From positions 124,001 to 188,000 of the forward strand of contig JAIWND010000041.1 in NCBI GenBank assembly GCA_025330725.1: a stretch of DNA of 64,000 nt. The letters run 5' to 3'. This DNA comes from Chlamydoabsidia padenii. Lineage: Eukaryota > Mucoromycota > Mucoromycetes > Mucorales > Cunninghamellaceae. Shown here one piece after another: positions 25,184-55,797 of the stretch (position 1 is the stretch's first letter; each line of letters starts with the position of its first letter). The notes under the pieces were generated by a model. It saw only the letters and a list, made by a program, of their open reading frames with translations, was not told where the DNA came from and did no database searches. The translations under genes and the position numbers were made by a program.

Positions 25184-25223
25184 AACAGCACCCCTTGTTT
25201 ATTCACATCTGTCATCTCACTTA

Positions 25224-25400
25224 CAGTCATTTCAGAAAGTAAAGTCGCTGGTTTTGAGTTTAATGTCGTGCAAAAAATTTGCGTGTTCAACAATGAAGTC
25301 GCCTGGTTCAGCAATAGAGTCGTGATCACATGTCACGGGCTTTGTTTATTTTTACCTGTCGCTAATTTTTCTTGGCATTTTAATTTTATAAAACGAGAAT
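25224..25400 (+). mobile_element. Isolated terminal fragment of Tc1 family 2
   Basis: After a TA (25222-25223), CAGTCATTTCAGAAAGTAAA opens about 175 bp that match, in reverse orientation, the 5' ends of the family 2 copies at 27730-27901 and 55620-55797. Both contain the GCGAC and GCACGACAT-type blocks and the TAAAAATAAAC block. No transposase sequence follows, so it is a truncated copy or a small non-autonomous derivative. Confidence 0.7.
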
Positions 25401-26212
25401 GCTCGGCCAGCAGAAAATTTTTCACAGAATGAAGGCCTTTTTTAGCTTAATGAGCGAGGGGAGGGGCAGAGAGGAGGGGGATACATTTGGTATATTTATG
25501 CATATGGACAAAATGTTCACAACTTTTTCATCAAATGAATGGCAGGCAATTCGCAATGGGTGTAGGAGGTGCACTTTTAAGACTCCAGCATAACTTTAGC
25601 TCAAAATATAAATAGAAAGAGGCCGTCATTGTTTTAAAATACCAACCAGTTGACCAGCTTTGTACACAGTAATCCACCCAAGAACAACAAAACGAGCGGA
25701 AATAGATGCGGGAAGCACATTCTAACATGAAAAAAAGGCGGGTCAATAAGTTATAAAGTAGGCGAAATCAAACCTGTACGTTCCGCAAAGCAATGTTGCA
25801 ATGTACCGCAGTGGAGATACTACATGTCAGTTGACCACGAAGGAGTCCCTGATTGGTACAATTATGCTAAACTTTTCTCTTTTTCCCTCTGACCTTGGGG
25901 CAATCATCCTGCCTATGCGTCAGCCTATACTCAAGAGAAAAGGTTGCTTTTGGAACCAGCTGTGTGTTGGTCGTTCAAGGGAGAGGACCTCGTAACAATG
26001 TGCGACGTGCGGACAGAGCTTAGAAACAACCCATGTAAAAAACCTTGCAGTTTCCTTCTTCATCTCATAGCTTCCATCTCCAAGCGAGGGAAGAAATACT
26101 ATTGCATGGCCACACAACTGTGTTGAAGGAGAAGCTGAAAGAAGAAGAAAAAAATATTCCGTGGAAATCCGTGAAAAAAAAAATCACAGTGAGCCAAGAA
26201 AATGAAGGCTTG
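25401..26212. other. Region without convincing gene
   Basis: Only short frames are seen. The stretch lies between a Tc1 terminal fragment and a family 2 Tc1 copy and is probably transposon-derived. Confidence 0.4.
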
Positions 26213-26318
26213 TCATTGGCCAGCCAAATAAAAGTGAACACCAGGAAGGTGCAATCTTTTTCCACAATCTTCTTTCCCACCTCCTTTTTTTTTTTTTTTT
26301 TGTTTTTTTTTTTGTTTT

Positions 26319-26350
<32 letters not shown>

Positions 26351-27649
26351 GCATTTTGTGTTTTTATAATCTCTCCTTGTTGAGACATTTACCGAACATT
26401 TAGCAGAATGAGAAACAAAGCCTTTGAAATCACTTAAATATAAGCTATTGCATGCCTCACTAATTCTTGTCATTAATGATTCTTTTTCCAGGAATTTATT
26501 TCCTTTAACTTTACTCTTGACAACTGACCAAAATTGTTCAATTGGATTGAGTTCAGGAGAATACGGAGGAAGGTAAGCATACCGGTATCCTCGAGAGTGA
26601 ATATATTTTCCTATGTCAGTTGAGCTATGAATAGGGGCATTATCCATGACAAGATAATGTCCTTTCATTTCTGGATACTTGTCCATTTCATCAAGGGTAG
26701 CTTTTAAAAAACTCAGATAATGTCCTGTTACTGTTCCAATGCTATAACCATCAGTCTCATACCCGATCTTTCTCTTCTTGATACGCTTCGGAACTCGCAA
26801 ACTAACATTAATTAAACCTGTGGCAGAAATTGCACCTAAAATGAATGTTGCTTTTGCTTTAGTCATTGGCACTGTAACTACTGCAGGAGTGCCTTTCTTT
26901 AACCAAGCCATACCCCGTTTCAAATTAATGTGAAAGGCGGATTCATCAAGAAAGACACAATTTGTTGTGAAATCCAGGTCAGTTTGCTGCCACTTTTGAA
27001 CCCAGTCATATCTTTGCTGAATCTTTTCCTTACTGTTCCTTTCCACAGGATGAAACTGTGCTTGCTTAATAGACAGATTACACTCAGTTGTCATGAAGTT
27101 ATAAACAAGACTATGAGAAACGTTGAGATCCTCATAGTTTTGTTTCAAACTTTCCATCACTTCATTGACAACGGCAGAAGGATTCTCATCAATGTAATTT
27201 AAAAGAAATTGATTATGCTCATTCCCAAGAATACGGCGTCGCCCTGATTTTTTCTTTTTTTCGAAAATGCTTTCTGGGTCTTCGTAATAACGTTTTACCC
27301 ATCTCTGTGCTGCCCGGATATGAATCCCTAATTGTCTCGCAGCAGCAGAAGCATTCAAGCATTTGCTGAAAAATAAATGAAAAAATCTAGTCTTGTCTTC
27401 ATCAGAGTAAACCGTATAGCGTCGCTTATTGCATAATTCCATATCAACATCACAGTTTCTTTCATCCGCAGTTGGAAGTATAACGGGATTAGATTGTCTT
27501 TCTGGAGGTTTATTCATTAAGAATTGAGTACGGGAACTTAATGTTTCAATAGCATACAACTCCTCATCTACAACTAGATCCATCGGCTGAACGCCATGTT
27601 CATCAACAATATGCCCCTGTCCATCTTCATAATAAAACTGCATACTCAT
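26213..27649 (-). pseudogene. Tc1/mariner transposase, family 2, copy A (frameshifted C-terminus)
   Basis: The start is the ATG at 27649 (MSMQFYYEDGQGHIVDEHG). The frame is open further upstream, but that part is the element's 5' UTR. It has a helix-turn-helix head (CLNASAAARQLGIHIRAAQR), first Asp (CVFLDESAFHIN), second Asp (LVMDNAPIHS) and Glu (NPIEQFW), all intact. Compared with copy B (54263-55486), one base is lost near 26390, after HSAKC. The normal ending DKCLNKERL-stop is lost, and the frame runs on through a Lys/Gln tail encoded by the T-rich tract at 26283-26348. The catalytic core may still be functional. The right element end is at 27901, followed by TA. The left end was not identified. 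Confidence 0.82.
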
Positions 27650-27901
27650 CTTCAATATCTGTAAAATAAATTGTAAATAGAGAGAAGAAAGCAAAACGGA
27701 CATAGAAAATCGAACCCCTTTTTTATAACAATTTAATGCCAAGAATTTTATTGGATTACTAAGCGACAAGTAAAAATAAACGAAGTTCGTGACGCATGAG
27801 CATGACTTTATTTTTGGATCAATCGATATCATTTTTGAACGCACAATTTTTTTGCACGACTCCAAACTCAAAATCAGCGACTTTTCTTTCTGAAATGACT
27901 G
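27650..27901. mobile_element. 5' end and terminal repeat of Tc1 family 2, copy A
   Basis: On the minus strand CAGTCATTTCAGAAAG begins at 27901 next to TA (27902-27903). The sequence down to the ATG matches the equivalent leader of copy B and the fragment at 25224. Confidence 0.75.
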
Positions 27902-28421
27902 TAAATCACCCAGAATTTCTTGATTGGATAAAATAAATGATGACGTCAGCACTTTTCTTTTTATCACCCATGAAATTAGTAAACCGCTTTTCTTTACTTT
28001 TCTCTTTGACTCCCTGATGCTTGCTTTCTTGTTTACTTGCACCTGCTGCATTTGACTCTATTATTCTTATAGTATGGACGTGTTTGATCATAACTAATAA
28101 CTTTTCTTCTATTAGACTTTATTTTTACTTTTATCTTTTGGAAGTTAAATTAGCAAACACCATATTGTGGCCATCTTGAAGTACTCATTCACTCTTTTCA
28201 AAACTGTTAATTTATTTCTTTGTTACAACAAATCAACAAAGATATCAAGTCAAATTCCGCAGGTTATTTTTGTCCTTGTTTGTAACTGCATTTCTCAATC
28301 CACTTCTTTGGTAATAGCATGAATAGGCAGTAATTATGGATTATTGTTTCTAACATAATGATAGGTGACAATATTGGTGATTTACCACATACTTTTTTAG
28401 CATATTTCTGCGCCTTATTTT

Positions 28422-35658: not shown

Positions 35659-36575
35659 ATGCAATCCATTACAAAACAATTATTCAATCTTCCGCCCGAA
35701 TCCTCTGAAACTGCCGTTACCATAAGGCCTCAGCCAGGATACTCTTATAAGACTACGATCGAAAGCCGTAGGGGAAAGTCGTCAACCTATAATATAGGAA
35801 CAAAAGTTTACATCAACATTTGTCATTCTGATAGTCTACCTGCTCCAAAAATAGCTTCTGAGGATGAGATTCAACAAGCGTTAATGGCTGTCCCCGGAGC
35901 AACTTATCAAACGCCTCTAAGTTTAGGAAAACCACGGCAACAACTACTCGATGAGGATGAGGATACGTTGATTCTGGATGCCTGTATTCATACACAACCT
36001 TTTATTCGGTCAGAACATGATTTGGATTTTCGTCTTTATATATTAGAGCTGGCAATGGAACATGCTGAAGAAGCTCTTTCGGTTGATTTGAGCCGACAAT
36101 TTATAATATTAAAAGTCGCTGCGAAGGGTGCACCAATACCAAAACGCACTCTCCTTCTACCTCCTGAATCTTCTTCTGCTGGGTCTAAAGTTGATGCCCT
36201 GCTCTTCCCTTCGCCTCAGGTAGCCACTTCCCCTCAAGTGTCAATGTCATCTTGGTATTGTCGGCCTTCGTTTAAAAAGGACGACGGTATTTTGATTATC
36301 ATACTTGAAATGCCAACATATACAGTATGCATCAATGTATAAAAAAGTATGATATATAGCTAACCTTTTTTTAATAGACACCCATACCACCGTGGAGTGT
36401 TCAAATAGATTATTCGTGCCTAATGTTGAAAGGGGTGATGGACAAGGTGATTGATATAATGCTTCCTGAAACTATCGATGTAGTGTCAACAGCCAACCGT
36501 GTAGAATACTATAAGAAAAGTGGACATCTTGTGATACACTTGATGATCGCCACTGTCCGAGAGAGATACATTTAG
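35659..36575 (+). CDS. PIH1: PIH1 domain protein (R2TP/snoRNP assembly)
   Basis: Exons 35659-36324 and 36378-36575 (53-bp intron) give 287 residues, close to human PIH1D1 (290). The PIH1 domain shows RPQPGYSYKTTIESRRGK, the core KVYINICHSDSLPAPK, YQTPLSLGKPRQQLLDEDE and DACIHTQPFI. The C-terminal segment (WSVQIDYSCLMLKG, SGHLVIHLMI) has the beta pattern of the CS-like domain. PIH1 proteins join Tah1/RPAP3 and the RuvB-like ATPases in R2TP. This HSP90 co-chaperone assembles box C/D snoRNPs, PIKKs and RNA polymerase II. The frame is open upstream of 35659, but no ATG precedes it. Confidence 0.9.
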
Positions 36576-37011
36576 ATGCATAGAAATAAAGCTGATCACT
36601 ACGCGCAAGGGAGTTTGTAATACTTTGAATACAGTGATAAAAAATGGAAGGTCAGAAAAAAGAACTCCTTTATGCGTATAATTGACTTACGGCTTTAAAC
36701 ATCACGTATTTTTGTTATACGGAATGGTGGACGAGAAAGCATCGCTGGCCTTGTGTTGTTTTTTGTTGGCGGCATGCCTAAAGAGAGCATGAATATTGCG
36801 GAAAGTATTCACGTCCCTTTGCCACACAGTATGACAGCTATTGCAACTAATACTTTATACAAAGGAGAAGGGTGTTCATCAGCAAGAGGCATGTTCGCCA
36901 TATCCTTGCGACTACAACAAGAGAAGACTTGCGAAGTATTGTATTCATTCATGTCCATCAAGATCAGTCTTCCTTGATCTTCCGCCGTGTAATGTGCCGA
37001 GTAGAGATCTA
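36576..37011. other. Intergenic region with a dispersed short repeat
   Basis: No gene is seen. The segment at about 36797-36852 (GTATTCACGTCCCTTTGCCA, then CACAGTATGACAGCTATTGC) has a close relative at 58110-58165. Confidence 0.5.
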
Positions 37012-37204
37012 CAGGTTTTTTCCATTAAAATTGAGGTTTTTGAAATTTATGATTCGGGTCTTTGAAATTTTATTTACAGCCTTTGACTTTTGATTTTATT
37101 CTGTTTGACTAGTACTTCGGGCTGTTTGATAAGTGAAGATACAGTTCGTGATTTTTGAATAAATAATTATTGATCAAGTTTATTAATTAAATAAATAAAT
37201 AAAA

Positions 37205-38797
37205 TTAAAGCATTTTCTCCATATTTAAACATCTGTCGAAAAATGATACAGAGTGTCTGATCCAACCTTCACAATCGGAAACAGTTACCAGTTTGGCAGC
37301 TTCATTTATTCTTGGAATCAAAGTATCCTTCTCGGTAACCTCTCCCCTACGAACGTTCATTTTAATCTTGGACCACATTTCTTCGATAGGGTTGAGGAAT
37401 GGAGAGTATACCGGAAGGTACATACACTTATAGCCACGAGAGGATATCAGCTTCTTGACGTCGTCGCTCTTGTGGATAGGGGCATTATCCATTACCAAAT
37501 AACGGCCTTTCAAATCATGCTTGTCCAGCTCGTCCATAGTTTTCTCCAAAAACTGCAAGTAGTGAGATGTTCTTGTGCCAACACGACCATTTACGGAGTT
37601 GACACCAGTTTCAACCATGTTTATTTTTCTTTTTTTGTTGGAGACAACAGCAGAGGGCTTGCGAACCATCAAATTGACAATACCTAGCTCACACATGGCA
37701 CCAATGATACTGATAGATATTCCCCGTTGAGCAGCGACAATGGTCTTCGCAGGAGTGCCTTTTACAGAGCGACCAAAGGTTCTTTTGATATGAAGATTGA
37801 ATCCTGCTTCGTCTATGAACACACAAGTTTTAAAATAGTCAAATTCTGGGGTGGCTTGCCATTGTAAAATTGTTTCTTTCCTTTTTTGCAGATTAATAGG
37901 ATTGTTGCGGGCGGCAGGAAGCTTCTCCAACTTCTTCATTGTGAGTTTGCAATGCTTCTTCAAGTGTTTCGAGATTGCCGATATGGTGATTTCTAAACCA
38001 GGGAAAGCTTTCATCACCGCTTCTCTTGCCTCTTTCAATGTGGCTTCAGCATTTTCTTCATAAAAATCCAAAAAAAAGGCAGTGTGTTGGTTAAACAGTT
38101 TTTGATTGCCGTATTTTCGTTCCTTGGACTCAACTGGCTCGGTAGGGACTTCCACCTCGTCTTCATCAATTTCCATACACTCTTGTTTTCTTTTTTCTTC
38201 GATCAGGAGACGTGCCTTGCGGACATAGTGCTGTGCAGTACTAACCACAATTCCGGTTTCCCAAGCAGCTTCTGCCGCAAACTTGTGTTCTTCGAAAACC
38301 AAACGAAAGAGCTCATTGACCTAGTATCAATTTCAAACAGCATAGTGTTAAAAAAAAAGAAAAAAAAAAGTAAGACTTGCCCGCTGTTCACTGTACTTGC
38401 GATACTGGCGCTTAACTATCTGTCTGGCATCGGGAATCATATCAAATGCTAATGGAGCGGTAGTTTTGGCAGATTTTTTCGCTGCTTTTGAGGGAGAGGT
38501 TCCGGTGTTGAGGTTTGTTGTCTCAGGCTGGAAATTGGACAAGGAAAAAAGTTGCTGTACCTCGTTATGGCGTTTACTCCATTCCATTTCTACAGTGTGG
38601 GCAAAATCGTCAAGAACTTCCCCTCTCTGAGAGCTATCTTCTGTTTGCATCATAACATCATCTTCCAAACCAGGAAAGGAGTCCGATACCAATTGACAGT
38701 GCTCGTCCATTATAAATTGGGCAGGTTCAGTAATATCATTGATATGATTATCCGTGACTAAATCACAGTGTTCGTCCATTATAAACTTATTTGACAT
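37205..38797 (-). CDS. Tc1-like DDE transposase with GC-AG intron
   Basis: Exon 1 (38797-38381) and exon 2 (38320-37205) give 510 residues. The 60-bp intron has a GC donor (CGG then GCAAGT) and a CTAG acceptor, and the junction reads KYSEQR-VNELFRLVFEEH. The N-terminal half carries two copies of FIMDEHC and a helix-turn-helix-like segment AAEAAWETGIVVSTAQHYVR. The catalytic core keeps the first Asp (CVFIDEAGFNLH), second Asp (LVMDNAPIHKS) and Glu (NPIEEMW). No stop or frameshift is seen, so it could be active. The gene is about 130 residues longer at the N-terminus than standard Tc1 transposases and lies entirely within the TIRs at 37012 and 40720. Confidence 0.92.
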
Positions 38798-38868
38798 TTT
38801 GTATGATTCGAAGAAATTAGGAAAGAAAAAAAAAGGCTAACGATATTTTATGATGTGTTTTTCATAAT

Positions 38869-38932
38869 AATGCATCAAGTACTTGTCAAGAAAATGACAT
38901 AATGCATCAAGTAGTTGTCAAGAAAATGACGT
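38869..38932. repeat. 32-bp tandem repeat, two copies
   Basis: AATGCATCAAGTACTTGTCA plus AGAAAATGACAT is repeated directly with two differences. It lies 72 bp upstream of the transposase start inside the two-gene element and is a candidate regulatory or binding site. Confidence 0.88.
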
Positions 38933-38959
38933 AAAATTGAAAGGTATTTCATTACCAAA

Positions 38960-39450
38960 TTAGTCTAGTGAGCATATTGAGCTCAATGAACGATATGAAC
39001 TTTATGAGCATAAGTAACACAATGAACGTAATGAGCGAAGTGAGCAAAGGGAGCCCAATGAACTTAAAACACAGACTGAACATTATGAACTCAATGAACT
39101 CAGCGAGCGGAATGAAGCTATTGAATGCTGTGAACGCTGTGAACAGAAGAAAAAACAGGCTAAAAGTTAATGAACATAATGAACATTTTAGTGAACATAA
39201 TGAACACAAGGAGCAAAATTATGAACACAATGAGCGCAATGAACTTTATGAACATAAGTAACACAGTGAGCGTAATGAACACAATGAGCGCAATGAACTT
39301 TATGAACATAAGTAACACAGTGAGCGTAATGAACACAATGAACAAAATGAACAAAATGAACAAAATGAACAAAATGAACAAAATGAACAAAATGAACAAA
39401 ATGAACAAAATGAACAAAATGAGCGCACTAAGCACACTGAGCATAGTGAG
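38960..39450 (+). repeat. TGAAC/TGAGC minisatellite
   Basis: About 50 occurrences of TGAAC or TGAGC at roughly 9-10-bp spacing. They end in about ten exact AATGAACAA-type 9-mers (39330-39420), and a 54-bp higher-order unit is duplicated at about 39225-39330. It lies between the divergent promoters of the element's two genes. Confidence 0.92.
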
Positions 39451-39691
39451 CATACTGCTTAGTAAGCACAGTGAACTGTACGGATTCGGCGTACCTTATG
39501 AAGTCATCAAACTGTTTTAGCACAAAAAAATATAAGTTTTTAAGCAATCTCAATGATACAATTTGTCAATATAACTTAAACGTTGTACAGTGATTGTCTT
39601 GGTTCGAAATGTTTACATAAGTATCTTCCAATGAGGTCATTTCAATAGTTCAAAAAACTTTTAAATATGTTGTGGAGAGCTTTTTCAACTA

Positions 39692-40318
39692 ATGTCAACA
39701 TTAAACATGTCAATCTTTCAATCTGTCACTAAATCACTTCCACGTAAAAAAAAGCAGCATTCTGAAAGGGAAATCAATGGACTCGATTACATGGACATCA
39801 ACGAATATACAGAAAATATCAGTAGTCATATGCAATCTTTTAAACTTCACGACCTAACATCAAACGACACAAGTAATGAGACAGACAAAAGTACTCACAA
39901 TAACCTTGATACACCACCTGTGATCAAAAAAAGGGGGAAATCCGCCACAAACCCCCCTCTAAGTGATCAGTCAAATTCATTGACCACTTGTGAAGCTATG
40001 GATTTATCGGATCCGACAAAATCGAAGCCAGCGACCCTCAAGGTTGTTAAAAGAAGAAAAACGTACACAAAAGATGATCGTCGTAATGTCCTTTATCTTT
40101 ACTATGATATGGGAATGAGCGTCAGGGAGATCAACTACGTAACCGGGATGTGCACCGGGTCTATTCAATACCGTATAAATAAAGTCAAGAAGAAATTCCC
40201 TACCAGGCGAAGAAACCAAGAAATCACTGATGAATCGATAGAGCACATGAAAGAGCTAGTTGCGCATAATGCAGACATTAATTTAAAAAAAGAATTTCGA
40301 GATTCAACCTCGCAATAA
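39692..40318 (+). CDS. Second ORF of the two-gene Tc1-like element: HTH protein without catalytic domain
   Basis: 208 residues from the ATG at 39692. The N-terminal 110 residues are polar with basic patches (PRKKKQHSER, KKRGKSATN). Residues about 118-170 (KRRKTYTKDDRRNVLYLYYD, MSVREINYVTGMCTGSIQYR, INKVKKKF) form a helix-turn-helix. It resembles the transposase segment AAWETGIVVSTAQHYVRKAR on the opposite strand. No DDE domain follows; the C-terminus ends after KKEFRDSTSQ. It reads divergently from the transposase across the minisatellite. It may be a transposase-derived DNA-binding accessory protein or repressor. That role is inference; the shared TIRs are seen. Confidence 0.78.
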   Translation: MSTLNMSIFQSVTKSLPRKKKQHSEREINGLDYMDINEYTENISSHMQSFKLHDLTSNDTSNETDKSTHNNLDTPPVIKKRGKSATNPPLSDQSNSLTTCEAMDLSDPTKSKPATLKVVKRRKTYTKDDRRNVLYLYYDMGMSVREINYVTGMCTGSIQYRINKVKKKFPTRRRNQEITDESIEHMKELVAHNADINLKKEFRDSTSQ

Positions 40319-40720
40319 AACTTGTTTTTTTTAAAAAAAACTTCAAACTACTTGGAATCGAGTGGATACAAGTTTTCGAATTTTAAATAGCTACGTAAAA
40401 TGTATTGAGTGAAACTCCCACTGAGACTTTTTAACTTGCTTGAATGACTTTGTTTCGATATCGAAAAATGTGCACTGCCTTCACGGCACTATAGGGCTTG
40501 CATGATTACCCCTGATGAATGTCATTAGTCATTCGAAACCCGCTATTCGGCATGCCATCATGGATGCTAAAAAAAGAAGCTTTCTACACTAAGATGTTCA
40601 TCTCAAAGGCAACAAAGTACTATTCAAACGGAGTAAAATTAAAAGTCAAAGGCTGTAAATAAAATTTCAAAGACCCGAATCACAAATTTCAAAAACCTCA
40701 ATTTTTATGGAAAAAACCTG

Positions 40721-41199
40721 TAGTTGTATCACAAATTGTCAATGTATAAAAGACTAGTGTTATATCAAGAATTTAAAAATCGATATCTTTATTAAAATAA
40801 TGGAATAAGATATATATACTATACTATACTATACTAAAGAGAGTATGGTGAGGAAGAGTGGAAGAGGAGAAAGAGCAGGGTGAAAATAGGGAGAGAGGAA
40901 TGATGTTAACAAAAGTAGGTATCGGGGTTTCAAGTCTCCTTTTGTTTCATCACAGCCCGCTTCAATAAAGTCCTACATTTCGAGGCCAACCCTGTGATAG
41001 GTTTTCCACGGTAAATAGAAGCGGAAAAAAGTAAGATTTAAGGTTTGTAGACTAACGTTGAACCGCCGCCCTTCCATTTGACTCACCGCACTTTTTGATA
41101 ACCGAAAACAAACTTACTTTACTCACGACAATATATTTTTAAAAAGCCGCCCTTCCCACTTTTTTTTTTCTTTCTTTCTTTTTCAATAAACTCAATACC
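40721..41199. other. Spacer between two transposons
   Basis: Contains TATATATACTATACTATACTATACTA (about 40810) and the upstream region of the Harbinger transposase. No gene is seen. Confidence 0.5.
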
Positions 41200-42703
41200 A
41201 TGTCAATGAATACTGTGGATAATCAAACGCTCTCACTTTTAGGTGAATTACATGAAATTGAAATGGCCTTTGCTTTTCACGAACGACAAGTAGACCTTAA
41301 CGACGAAGGCCAACACCAACACCAGCAACCATTACAACTTCCTCGAACACGGCTACGACGTCCTCGCTTGGATATTCAACGATTCACCGACAGTAAAAGT
41401 AAAGAATTCTTTCGATTCACGCATAACGACGTAAGTGTCATACATGTGTACTTAACTGGTACTAATGAAATGTCTTTATGTTCTTTATTTTATGTAGATT
41501 CGTCGTATATGTGTCGCAATGGACCTGCCCGAGACCATTGATGTAGGCGCTCCTGGTCGCCCCTTCAAGGTGACTCGTGAATTTGGACTGGCGGTTTTTT
41601 CGCGTCGCCTTGCCTTTCCTTCAAGTTTGGTGGACATCCGACATTTTTTTAACTTGTCAAGCTACTCGGCAGCATCTCTTATCACGACTGGGATGGTGTC
41701 GATGGTATTCCCGAAAATCAAGCACAGGATGAAGTTCAACACTCATCACATGCGCCCCGAAAACTTGGTCCGTTTTGCGGCCGCTATCAGGGCTACTGGT
41801 AAGGAGCATAACTATAAAAATTGGACAAAATCACAATATACTAACAAGTCTTTGATTGTAACTAGGCGGTGAAGTCCGTGATGTCGTTGGTTTTATCGAC
41901 GGCACTATGCAGCCAACATGCCGCCCTTATATGCGACAAGATGAACAACGCCTGATGTACAACGGATGGAAAGTAAGTGACAACAAGGTGGTGTATACTC
42001 AATAATGTTACCTTTAACTTACTCTTTTATACGTATTCGACTAGCATTACCATTGCCTGAAGTACCAGGCCATCACGACGCCTGATGGTATCACTGTCAG
42101 CATGATGGGATCTCTTCCAGGAACCCAACACGATGAACGGATCGCGAACGGCACAGGCACCAGGGAACTGCTGGAGCGGTACATCAGTGGGTTTGCCTTG
42201 TATGGCGATCCTGCATATGTCCAATCCGCGGAATTGATCCGCCCATTTATCATTAACAGGGATGCCGAAACCGAAGAGGAAAGGAACGAACAAGGTAAGT
42301 GGGTTGATAGGTAGCAGACAATAGATAATAGTTTATAATGTATAGGGTATAGTTTAGTTATTATACAATATGAATAAAGGACATGCAATTTTAACACAAC
42401 CATGTTATACCACCTTTTCACTGTAGGAATCCGACAAGACATCAACAAGGCGATGGCTAGTCAACGTGTGGCTGTTGAATGGGAATTTGGAAAAACTTCC
42501 ATCTTCTTCAGTCATATCAAGTTCAAGTATGCCATGCGTTTTCCTGTGCTTCTTTTGTGATTGCCACTTTCTTCAAAAACATTCACACCTGCCAGTATGG
42601 GTCCCCAGCAACAAGTCGCTTTCGTGTCTCACCGCCTTCTATTGAAGAATATATTGGAAGTGTGCTTAACCAAGGTGACTATGGAATTCCTGGTTTGGAA
42701 TAA
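41200..42703 (+). pseudogene. PIF/Harbinger transposase, frameshifted near the C-terminus
   Basis: Five exons (41200-41430, 41498-41798, 41866-41972, 42045-42294, 42427-42703) with GT-AG introns. The catalytic domain shows the first Asp (VVGFIDGTMQPTCRP), second Asp (ALYGDPAYVQSAEL) and Glu (RVAVEWEFGKTS). Downstream of the Glu the frame breaks near 42525. The conserved continuation SFVIATFFKNIHTCQYGS and PPSIEEYIG lies in the next frame up to TAA at 42701. A 70-bp intron could remove the break, but it would also delete that conserved block, so a single-base lesion is more likely. The Myb-like partner follows on the other strand, the usual PIF/Harbinger arrangement. Confidence 0.86.
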
Positions 42704-54027: not shown

Positions 54028-55797
54028 CAGTATATTCATATTACTTTGGGAAAGAAAAAACTGGGTCTTTTTTTTTAAAAAAAAAAAAAAAAAAAAATGG
54101 TGTGGTCAAAAAACAACCAATCAAATATCACACTCTTGTCCACTCTTGTCCACTCTCTTGTCCACTCTCTTATCTGTCTTTTTTGTTGTTGTTGTTGTTG
54201 TTGTTGGCTGGCGTAGATCACCCGACAGAAACTGTTCGAATTCCTAAAGTTGGATAAAGACATTATAACCTTTCTTTGTTGAGACACTTGTCAAAACATT
54301 TGGCAGAATGAGAAACGAAACCTTTGAAATCGCTTAAATACAAACTATCGCACGCTTCACTAATTCTGGTCATTAACGTTTCCTTTTCCAAAAGTTTATT
54401 TCGTTTCACTTTGTTCTTGACAACGGACCAGAACTGTTCAATGGGGTTCAATTCAGGAGAATAAGGAGGAAGATAAACGTACCTATATCCTCGAGAATTG
54501 ATATACTTACCAATATCAGTTGAGCTGTGAATGGGAGCATTATCCATGACAAGGTAGTGCCCTTTCATTTGGGGATACTTATCCATTTCGTCGAGGGTAG
54601 CCTTTAAAAATCTTAGATAATGCCCTGTCACTGTTCCTATGCTATGACCATCGGTTGAACGCCCAATCTTTCTCTTTTTAATACGTTTTGGAACTCTCAA
54701 ACTGACATTGATTAAACCAGTTGTAGATATTGCACCTAAAATCGATGTTGCGTTCGCTTTAGTTGTAGGCACTGTAACTATTGCGGGAGTTCCCTTCTTT
54801 GACCAGGCTATACCCCGTTTTAAATTGATATGAAAGGCTGATTCATCAAGAAAGACACAGTTTGTCATGAAATCTAAGTCAGTTTGCTGCCACTTTTGTA
54901 CCCAATCGTATCTTTGTTGAATCTTTTCTTCGCTATTTCTTTCTACGGACTGGAATTGTGCCTGCTTAATAGATAGATTACACTCGGTTGTCATAAAATT
55001 ATAAACAGTGCTACGAGAAAGATTAAGATCCACAAAGTTTTGCATTAAACTTTCTGCTACTTCGGTTACAACAGCAGAAGGATTCTCATCAATGTAACTC
55101 AAAAGAAACTGCTTATGTTCCTCCCCAAGAATACGATGCCGACCTGACTTTTTCTTCTTTTCGAAGATGCTTTCAGGGTCCTCGTAATAACGTTTAACCC
55201 ATCTCTGCGCTGCTCGGATATGAATGCCTAATTGTCTCGCAGCAGCAGAAGCATTCAAGCATTTGCTGAAAAATAAATGAAAAAATCGAGTCCTGTCTTC
55301 ATCGGAATAAACTGTATACCGTCGTTTGCCACATAACTCCATGTCAATATCTTCATTGATCCTCGTACTTGTAACTGGAAATATTGCAAGATTAGAAGGT
55401 CTTTCAGCAGGTTTGTTCCTCAGGAATTGAGTACGAGAACTTATTGTTTCGATAGCGAATAGCTCCTCATCAATAACAATGTCCATGGGCTCAACTCCAT
55501 TCTCATCAACAACATGACCTTGTCCATCTTCTTAAAGAAACTACATACTCATATCTTAATGTCTGTAAAATAAATTGCAAATAGGAAAAAAAAAAAAAAA
55601 TTGCTCCCTTTTTTATAAAAATAATTAATGCCAAGAAATTTTATTGGATAATTACTAAGCGACAAGTAAAAATAAACGAGGTTCATGGCACGTGAACACA
55701 TCTTTATTTTTGGATCAATCGACATCATTGTTGAACACACAATTTTTTTGCACAACATCAAATTCAAAATCAGCGACTTTACTTTCTGAAATGACTG
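54028..55797 (-). mobile_element. Tc1/mariner element, family 2, copy B
   Basis: The right end is clear: on the minus strand CAGTCATTTCAGAAAGTAAA begins at 55797 next to TA (55798-55799). The left end is tentative: TA at 54026-54027 followed by CAGTATATTCATATTACTTT shows only partial match to the right end. It contains an almost intact transposase gene. The 3' flank has an A21 tract and CTCTTGTCCA repeats. Confidence 0.72.
54263..55486 (-). CDS. Tc1/mariner transposase, family 2, copy B (shortened N-terminus)
   Basis: A 407-residue frame from the ATG at 55486 (MDIVIDEELFAIETISSRTQ) to TAA at 54263. It has the HTH head (CLNASAAARQLGIHIRAAQR), DDE residues in CVFLDESAFHIN, LVMDNAPIHSS and NPIEQFW, and the ending SHSAKCFDKCLNKERL. 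Compared with copy A the true N-terminus is broken. MSM is followed by TAG in place of CAG (Gln) and a TAA two codons later, so translation could only begin about 22 residues further in. The catalytic core is intact, so reduced or trans activity is possible. Confidence 0.83.
   Translation of the reverse strand: MDIVIDEELFAIETISSRTQFLRNKPAERPSNLAIFPVTSTRINEDIDMELCGKRRYTVYSDEDRTRFFHLFFSKCLNASAAARQLGIHIRAAQRWVKRYYEDPESIFEKKKKSGRHRILGEEHKQFLLSYIDENPSAVVTEVAESLMQNFVDLNLSRSTVYNFMTTECNLSIKQAQFQSVERNSEEKIQQRYDWVQKWQQTDLDFMTNCVFLDESAFHINLKRGIAWSKKGTPAIVTVPTTKANATSILGAISTTGLINVSLRVPKRIKKRKIGRSTDGHSIGTVTGHYLRFLKATLDEMDKYPQMKGHYLVMDNAPIHSSTDIGKYINSRGYRYVYLPPYSPELNPIEQFWSVVKNKVKRNKLLEKETLMTRISEACDSLYLSDFKGFVSHSAKCFDKCLNKERL

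Follow-up and report, generated by a model that had tools for sequence, protein, structure and literature searches.

A stretch of DNA of 64,000 nucleotides from the mould Chlamydoabsidia padenii (Mucorales), hereafter the window (C36:124001-188000 in a genome of 34.2 Mb and 95 contigs), contains at positions 37012-40720 an element which, judged from its DD34E catalytic triad and TA target, belongs to the IS630-Tc1-mariner group of DNA transposons but has two genes. It carries an intact transposase gene, a second gene (ORF2) that diverges from it and a tandem array between the two gene starts, and by its parts it appears able to be autonomous. Transposase and ORF2 very probably form a real two-gene lineage. 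ORF2 may bind the array and regulate both genes, a reading to which we assign a probability of roughly one half.

Both terminal inverted repeats (TIRs) were found for three elements of the genome, and in all three they enclose both genes in the same divergent order. A distinct two-gene lineage had been proposed in an earlier sequence-only reading of this stretch, and the three bounded elements bear it out. Lineage A is the window element; lineage B comprises the copies on contigs C43, C86, C18 and C20, and lineage C those on C76, C37 and C73, which together are the eight genomic matches of the window ORF2.

Element structure and copies in the genome

The TIRs of the window element are 106 bp long, differ at six positions and are flanked by TA on both sides; arms and flanks stand in the sequence as had been noted before. 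The inverted arms (37009-37117 and 40615-40723; 109 nt, 94% complementary) are the longest of 21 inverted pairs in 36500-41200, followed by a pair of 26 nt at 73%, and the same search found no second long inverted pair inside the element. An imperfect 22-nt direct repeat lies within the left TIR (37025-37046 and 37047-37068). In the list of open reading frames (ORFs) of at least 60 residues for 36500-41200, those inside the element besides transposase and ORF2 have at most 116 residues and fall mostly on the array. The features of the element are the following.

37010..37011, no strand: left TA flank, half of the target-site duplication (sequence)
37012..37117, plus strand: left TIR, begins CAGGTTTTTTCC (inverted-repeat search)
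37205..38320, minus strand: transposase exon 2, 371 codons and stop, with most of the first helix-turn-helix (HTH) domain (HTH1), the second (HTH2) and the DD34E catalytic domain
38321..38380, minus strand: transposase intron, 60 nt, GC-AG (inferred from frame and homology)
38381..38797, minus strand: transposase exon 1 (ORF list, frame and homology)
38867..38930, no strand: 32-nt direct repeat in two copies, upstream of the transposase start
38967..39476, plus strand: intergenic array (motif count and tandem-repeat search)
39692..40318, plus strand: ORF2, 208 residues, N-terminal motif SERE..DY and C-terminal HTH
40055..40195, plus strand: HTH of ORF2, residues 122-168, modelled helices 127-139, 144-151 and 155-168
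40615..40720, minus strand: right TIR (inverted-repeat search)
40721..40722, no strand: right TA flank

The transposase is encoded on the minus strand by two exons and has 510 residues with an intact frame, in agreement with the sequence-only reading. Its catalytic triad consists of D309, D417 and E452, with 34 residues between the last two (DD34E), and the C43 and C76 transposases show the same spacing. Pfam DDE_3 (PF13358) is matched with an E value of 4e-27, and the fold is closest to Mos1 among solved structures. The two-part HTH head, the Mos1-like RNase H fold, the DD34E triad, the TA target-site duplication and the TIRs are all those of IS630-Tc1-mariner elements. The predicted intron of lineage A has a GC donor; its counterpart in the C43 relative (lineage B), at the same position, is 64 nt long and GT-AG, and the C76 relative (lineage C) reads through the site, the intron being absent. 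The transposase frame is open in the window, C43 and C76:23.8k copies and broken in those of C86 and C37.

A search of the genome with the transposase returned 126 matches, which is a lower bound. Seven places contain stretches of at least 68% identity to the window transposase and are taken as close copies (the window, C43, C86, C76:23.8k, C37, C76:2.8k and C38). ORF2 adjoins the transposase in divergent order in five of the seven, the broken C86 and C37 copies included, and in the remaining two (C76:2.8k and C38) the 5′ part of the transposase is itself missing; over 1.8 kb, C76:2.8k shares 98% identity with C86 and may therefore be a duplicate. Transposase-only copies of the family, which the sequence-only reading had named as counter-evidence, do not occur among the copies that keep the 5′ half, since all five of them have ORF2.

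The C43 element (L041 2693-8167, in two aligned pieces) lacks the outermost bases at its left end and has a foreign insert by its right TIR. The C76 element (L043 2360-6519) has TIRs of 139 bp at 97% identity. The terminal bases agree in the three lineages, being TA-CAGGTTTTTTCC in A, TA-CTGGTTTTTTCC in B (right end) and TA-CTGGATTTTTCC in C; TA-CTGG stands at both ends of the C76 copy, and TA at the right end only of the C43 copy. A genome search with the TIR, which had been suggested as a way to further copies, gave for A two matches, both being the ends of the window element itself, and for C six places. As a separate observation, an AT-rich insert with an ORF of 215 residues (L041 7214-7993) adjoins the right TIR of the C43 element, and a stretch 99.6% identical to it adjoins the C76:2.8k copy.

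Genome searches gave eight matches with the window ORF2 (itself included), six with the C37 ORF2 and seven with the C43 ORF2. The lists for the latter two queries include weak extra matches (C73:28579, C24 and C30; E 0.05-3.8), which are not taken as copies; that on C24 adjoins a transposase. Among the eight matches, five adjoin a transposase, C20 adjoins a lineage-B TIR, C73 a lineage-C downstream stretch (these two being fragments), and C18 stands alone.

Single-gene controls were drawn from 25 transposase-search loci (L015-L039), in four of which an inverted pair encloses the transposase match. Three were used (L024, L029 and L031, the last being window 25221-27904), which belong to the more distant group, and L032 (1328 bp) was omitted as doubtful. 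Like the two-gene element, these controls have TIRs; their transposase identity is about 40% and their length 1.75-2.7 kb, and none of the three ORF2 searches found a match in them, although a very diverged ORF2 could be missed because the A query hits the C ORF2 only at E 0.003-0.2. The control in the window is a single-gene Tc1-like element with a minus-strand transposase and 143-bp TIRs that are 81% identical and end in TACAGTCATTTCAG; it is the one control checked for the triad, and DD34E was seen. A further transposase of the 40% family lies at window positions 54263-55486, with an open frame of 407 residues and one TIR found in the window.

Beyond C. padenii, the relatives among the best 120 of 385 protein hits of the transposase include Rhizopus delemar (67%), Phycomyces (62%), Cokeromyces (74% over 60% of the query) and other assemblies (up to 77%). 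A tree of 38 rows was built from 28 hand-picked proteins of these 120 and ten of the C. padenii genome. A and B group with P0002, P0011 and Cokeromyces (support 100/99), and C groups with P0006/P0007 (87/59, weak) and Phycomyces (98/91), all three falling in a clade of 17 rows (100/100). The three two-gene transposases need two label changes on this tree, the starred branches forcing two, and one change is found in 0% of 200 bootstrap trees; the tree shows neither one origin nor two of the pairing, because the gene surroundings of the other proteins are unread. If the two-gene plan were ancestral to the clade of 17, it would be spread over several Mucorales genera. A GTDB scan with the transposase profile gave 142 stretches and 89 relatives, with 79 loci under prokaryote titles, many of them cyanobacterial, and none in a fungal context.

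ORF2 and the intergenic array

ORF2 begins 894 bp from the transposase start, in divergent orientation, and about 300 bp separate its end from the right TIR. Both the ORF list and Pfam agree with the earlier statement that this protein of 208 residues has no DDE domain. The Pfam scan inside the element covered the transposase exons and ORF2, and for ORF2 it gave no family above the cut-off, with DUF5720 (E 0.066) and Sigma70_r4_2 (E 0.081) both far below; at an E limit of 10 no Myb match appeared in Pfam, HMMER filters dropping most weak matches. The N-terminal motif SERE..DY is common to copies of all three lineages. The predicted model of ORF2, built from a three-sequence alignment, has a mean pLDDT (predicted local distance difference test) of 55.6; its confident part is a three-helix HTH at residues 127-168 (block means 78-89), followed by a helix at 180-206, and the remainder is of low confidence.

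The HTH strings quoted earlier for ORF2 and the transposase are both present in the translations, and a descent of ORF2 from the transposase head, as had been suggested, is moderately supported. After removal of heads L018 and L019, hhalign aligned a profile of six ORF2 sequences with 14 transposase heads over 46 columns on HTH1 with a score of 39.6 (E 2.5e-5, a single comparison); the best of 200 column shuffles scored 19.3 and the reversed control 11.0. When only the A, B and C heads are used, the alignment extends over 72 columns into the linker (E 1.1e-4, again for one comparison), and the ten heads of the 40% group score 29.4. Comparison of profiles thus makes it likelier that ORF2 descended from the DNA-binding head of a transposase than that it arose by HTH convergence or from another HTH source. 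The structure matches, on the other hand, are generic: the fold search found HTH proteins without singling out a transposase, and it was rejected as proof of this origin. ORF2 of the window copy was also considered as the first exon of a second transposase and rejected, as only about 300 bp are left before the TIR, with no ORF of at least 60 residues.

Public C. padenii proteins (gene models) are identical to two ORF2 copies. The protein search with ORF2 alone gave one hit of 40 candidates, which was ORF2 itself, and that with the six-sequence profile gave three hits of 1480 candidates, all from C. padenii; fast-evolving relatives could be missed because this search needs shared five-residue words.

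Each of the three lineages has a tandem array between its gene starts, with units of 9, 9 and 12 bp, so that the minisatellite named in the sequence-only reading has a counterpart in the other two. In A there are 42 TGA(A/G)C motifs on the ORF2 (plus) strand within 38950-39490 and one on the other strand, and 37 of the 41 spacings are multiples of 9. The array is densest at 39168-39422, with 27.7 copies of the 9-mer TAATGAACA at 74% match. The B array has 25.3 copies of the 9-mer AACAGAATG at 58% match, shares the TGAACA core of A and carries 27 motifs on the ORF2 strand and none on the other. The C array can be described as 27.2 copies of the 12-mer AAGACAAAGTGG at 58% match or as nine copies of a 36-mer at 75%. 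An exact pattern of four tandem 9-mers, searched through the 34.2 Mb, has eight occurrences in the A array, a single one in the B array and no other in the genome; the backward control gave none.

A and B have similar array units, and that of C differs from both. Over the turn and recognition helix, ORF2 has 9 of 16 identical positions between A and B, 3 of 16 between A and C and 5 of 16 between B and C, while the transposase has 11, 11 and 12 of 16 in the comparisons among A, B and C. This gives a hint, over three lineages, that the array unit may go with the recognition helix of ORF2 and not with that of the transposase. Further tandem repeats also occur in the A, B and C loci themselves.

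Possible roles of ORF2

In the proposed mechanism, the transposase would cut at the TIRs as in Mos1 or Tc1, and a copy of its DNA-binding head would have given rise to ORF2. The ORF2 product would bind the iteron-like array, which lies in the upstream region that the two genes share, and would control the divergent promoters, most likely by damping transposase expression, which would amount to self-regulation of copy number. That the array sits upstream of both genes favours a regulatory role. Array and ORF2 appear linked because differences in the array unit between lineages coincide with differences in the ORF2 recognition helix, and because the recognition helix of the transposase is nearly constant, as are the terminal 12 bp of the TIR. 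At somewhat less than even odds, a Mucorales Tc1/mariner element has duplicated its head to form a divergent regulator with a matching operator array, regulator and array co-evolving while head and TIR tips stay constant. If true, a self-made regulator with its operator array makes it testable how a cut-and-paste element limits itself.

Several observations weigh against this reading. HTH folds are widespread, and besides Tc3 the structures matched by the ORF2 model include TrpR, sigma region 4 and paired domains. The protein searches found no relative of ORF2 outside C. padenii, though close transposases occur in other Mucorales, and proteins of other species separate A and B from C in the transposase tree. 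The link between array and helix is drawn from three lineages, of which A and B are closer to each other than to C; the B and C arrays are imperfect (58% match at periods of 9 and 12 bp), and the genome-wide pattern search covered the 9-mer unit. It is not unusual for Tc1-like loci of the genome to contain tandem repeats, which in several 40% relatives stand on the other side of the transposase. The selection figures count in favour of the reading, within limits: the ratio of nonsynonymous to synonymous change (dN/dS, Nei-Gojobori count) is below 1 in all nine ORF2 pairs within lineages B and C (0.07-0.85), but these pairs share copies, some of which are fragments, and the window ORF2 has no close copy, so that the figures refer to B and C only. 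The strongest pair, C43-C86, has ten synonymous and three nonsynonymous changes. Assuming a neutral share of 0.23, the chance of so many synonymous changes is 6e-5 for this pair, 0.011 for C43-C18, 0.047 for C76-C73 and 0.16 for C76-C37, the four of nine pairs computed.

Finally, SERE..DY is out of frame with the HTH in all three lineage-B copies read. A programmed frameshift was considered there and rejected: the indel stretch differs among the three copies, and the frame offsets of 1, 2 and 1 differ, therefore there is no fixed shift. A short intron at this stretch is only possible.

The main rival, which we consider unlikely but by some way the most serious of the alternatives, is that ORF2 is an accessory factor of the Harbinger kind, needed for transposition, which recruits or imports the transposase and binds adjacent DNA. 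Both proteins of rice and zebrafish PIF/Harbinger elements are required for transposition, and the Myb-like partner of Harbinger3_DR binds a 9-bp motif (PMC9710019). The presence of ORF2 beside every transposase copy with its 5′ half (5 of 5) and the excess of synonymous change in lineages B and C would fit such a helper. The array, however, lies between the gene starts and not near the ends, and inspection of the window TIRs revealed no TGA(A/G)C motif within them. Moreover, the transposase itself still has two HTH domains, and therefore an end-binding helper is not obviously needed.

The array might alternatively be an internal enhancer bound by the transposase itself, ORF2 being a competitor or by-product. 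The related HTH1 of the transposase makes this conceivable, and ciliate TBE elements too have short tandem repeats between their ORFs, one of which is reversed (PMC4724952). We regard this as quite improbable, given that the recognition helix of the transposase varies little among A, B and C (11-12 of 16), in contrast to the array unit, which is different in C.

Slightly less probable still is that ORF2 is a host gene which the element has captured, or an open frame that arose by chance and travels with it. Its lack of a Pfam family above the cut-off would be compatible with this, as would the decayed Myb-like coding stretch that B and C also carry, owing to which these elements may pick up sequence. 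The occurrence of ORF2 as a lone host gene had been named in advance as evidence against the two-gene system, and none was seen; ORF2 without TIRs does occur once, at C18:2462-2833 (L047), where an open ORF2 frame of 123 residues and the upstream region make up about 610 bp of lineage-B sequence, the 8 kb read there containing neither a transposase nor a lineage-B TIR. This copy is likelier a stray fragment than a gene because it is 94% identical to C43, upstream region included, and lacks those parts. The other seven of the eight matches adjoin a transposase, a TIR or the downstream stretch, and the shared N-terminal motif, the dN/dS values below 1 and the public gene models for two copies likewise argue against a host gene, which was rejected as unlikely.

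Two adjacent or nested single-gene elements, one without its catalytic part, are very unlikely: ORF2 does end about where the second transposase HTH would begin, and nested insertion is seen in the C37 copy, but a single TIR pair encloses both genes in the same order with the array between them in all three bounded lineages, and in the window element ORF2 ends about 300 bp before the right TIR, with no further long inverted pair found inside.

Comparison with known transposons and further observations

IS630-Tc1-mariner members typically encode a transposase only (PMC12242761). A transposase as the only gene, usual though not strictly defining, is not what is found here, since ORF2 lies inside the TIRs in all three bounded lineages; compared with Mos1, Tc1/Tc3 and Sleeping Beauty, the element has a second divergent gene and a central array.

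Multi-gene Tc1/mariner elements have been described for ciliates, their peculiar life cycle being offered as a possible reason (PMC7325037). The window element resembles TBE in its tandem repeats between ORFs, one of them reversed, the 9-bp array at 39168-39422 lying between the divergent genes. The extra proteins of TBE and Tec are a 22-kDa protein without known domain, a 57-kDa zinc-finger/kinase protein or a site-specific recombinase, whereas here, in another kingdom, there is one HTH protein resembling the transposase head; the ORF list and the Pfam scan of the transposase exons and ORF2 revealed no zinc-finger/kinase or recombinase gene in the window element. The TIR tips are telomere-like in TBE and the TIRs are about 700 bp long in Tec, in contrast to the CAGGTTTTTTCC tips and 106 bp found here. 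In Paramecium ITm, all 13 described DNA transposons encode, in addition to the transposase, an ORF2 whose function is unknown, and the largest elements have four ORFs including a tyrosine recombinase (PMC5405496). That ORF2 and the one described here are likened by description only.

PIF/Harbinger elements also combine two genes, a transposase and a DNA-binding partner, which in their case is a Myb/SANT protein with a subterminal motif, as opposed to a putative HTH partner and a central array here. They have a different transposase family and a 3-bp target duplication. The window element has DDE_3 and TA flanks, and ORF2 gave no Myb match in the Pfam scan described above, where a Myb/SANT/MADF partner would be expected of a Harbinger element.

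The titles, opening lines of abstracts and passages searched contained no fungal multi-gene Tc1/mariner element, the main fungal survey and most subscription journals being outside the search; PMC4202319 and PMC3441728 yielded passages on other elements. The claim of an undescribed system may hold in this fungal sense but not in general, as multi-gene Tc1/mariner elements are in print for ciliates and the kind is therefore not wholly undescribed. On the whole, the observation made by the sequence-only reading is confirmed, and its interpretation is partly supported. The published exceptions to the one-gene plan that were found are those of ciliates, and a fungal case would show the plan arising outside them.

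A stretch of about 860 bp, 78% identical, is common to lineages B and C downstream of ORF2. It occurs at L041 6140-7000 (C43), L043 3385-2690 (C76), L049 4832-5670 (C73), L151 1065-1989 (C64) and L071 (C12), and several copies, C64 included, share nearly the same left boundary. No ORF2 match was found at C64, and the stretch has no match in the window's contig. It contains a decayed coding piece like a Myb domain (Pfam PF00249, E 0.001, below the cut-off) and may be either a third gene in decay or one captured from the host.

In the C37 copy, a different, broken Tc1-like transposase lies between transposase and ORF2 (L044 5201-6191), apparently nested. Two pairs of transposases in opposite orientation, each about 2.4 kb apart, were also observed: C20:108148-109056 with 111511-112419 (98.3% over 1.86 kb) and C37:94937-95845 with 98191-99099 (equal scores). 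Each pair could be the ends of a larger inverted structure.

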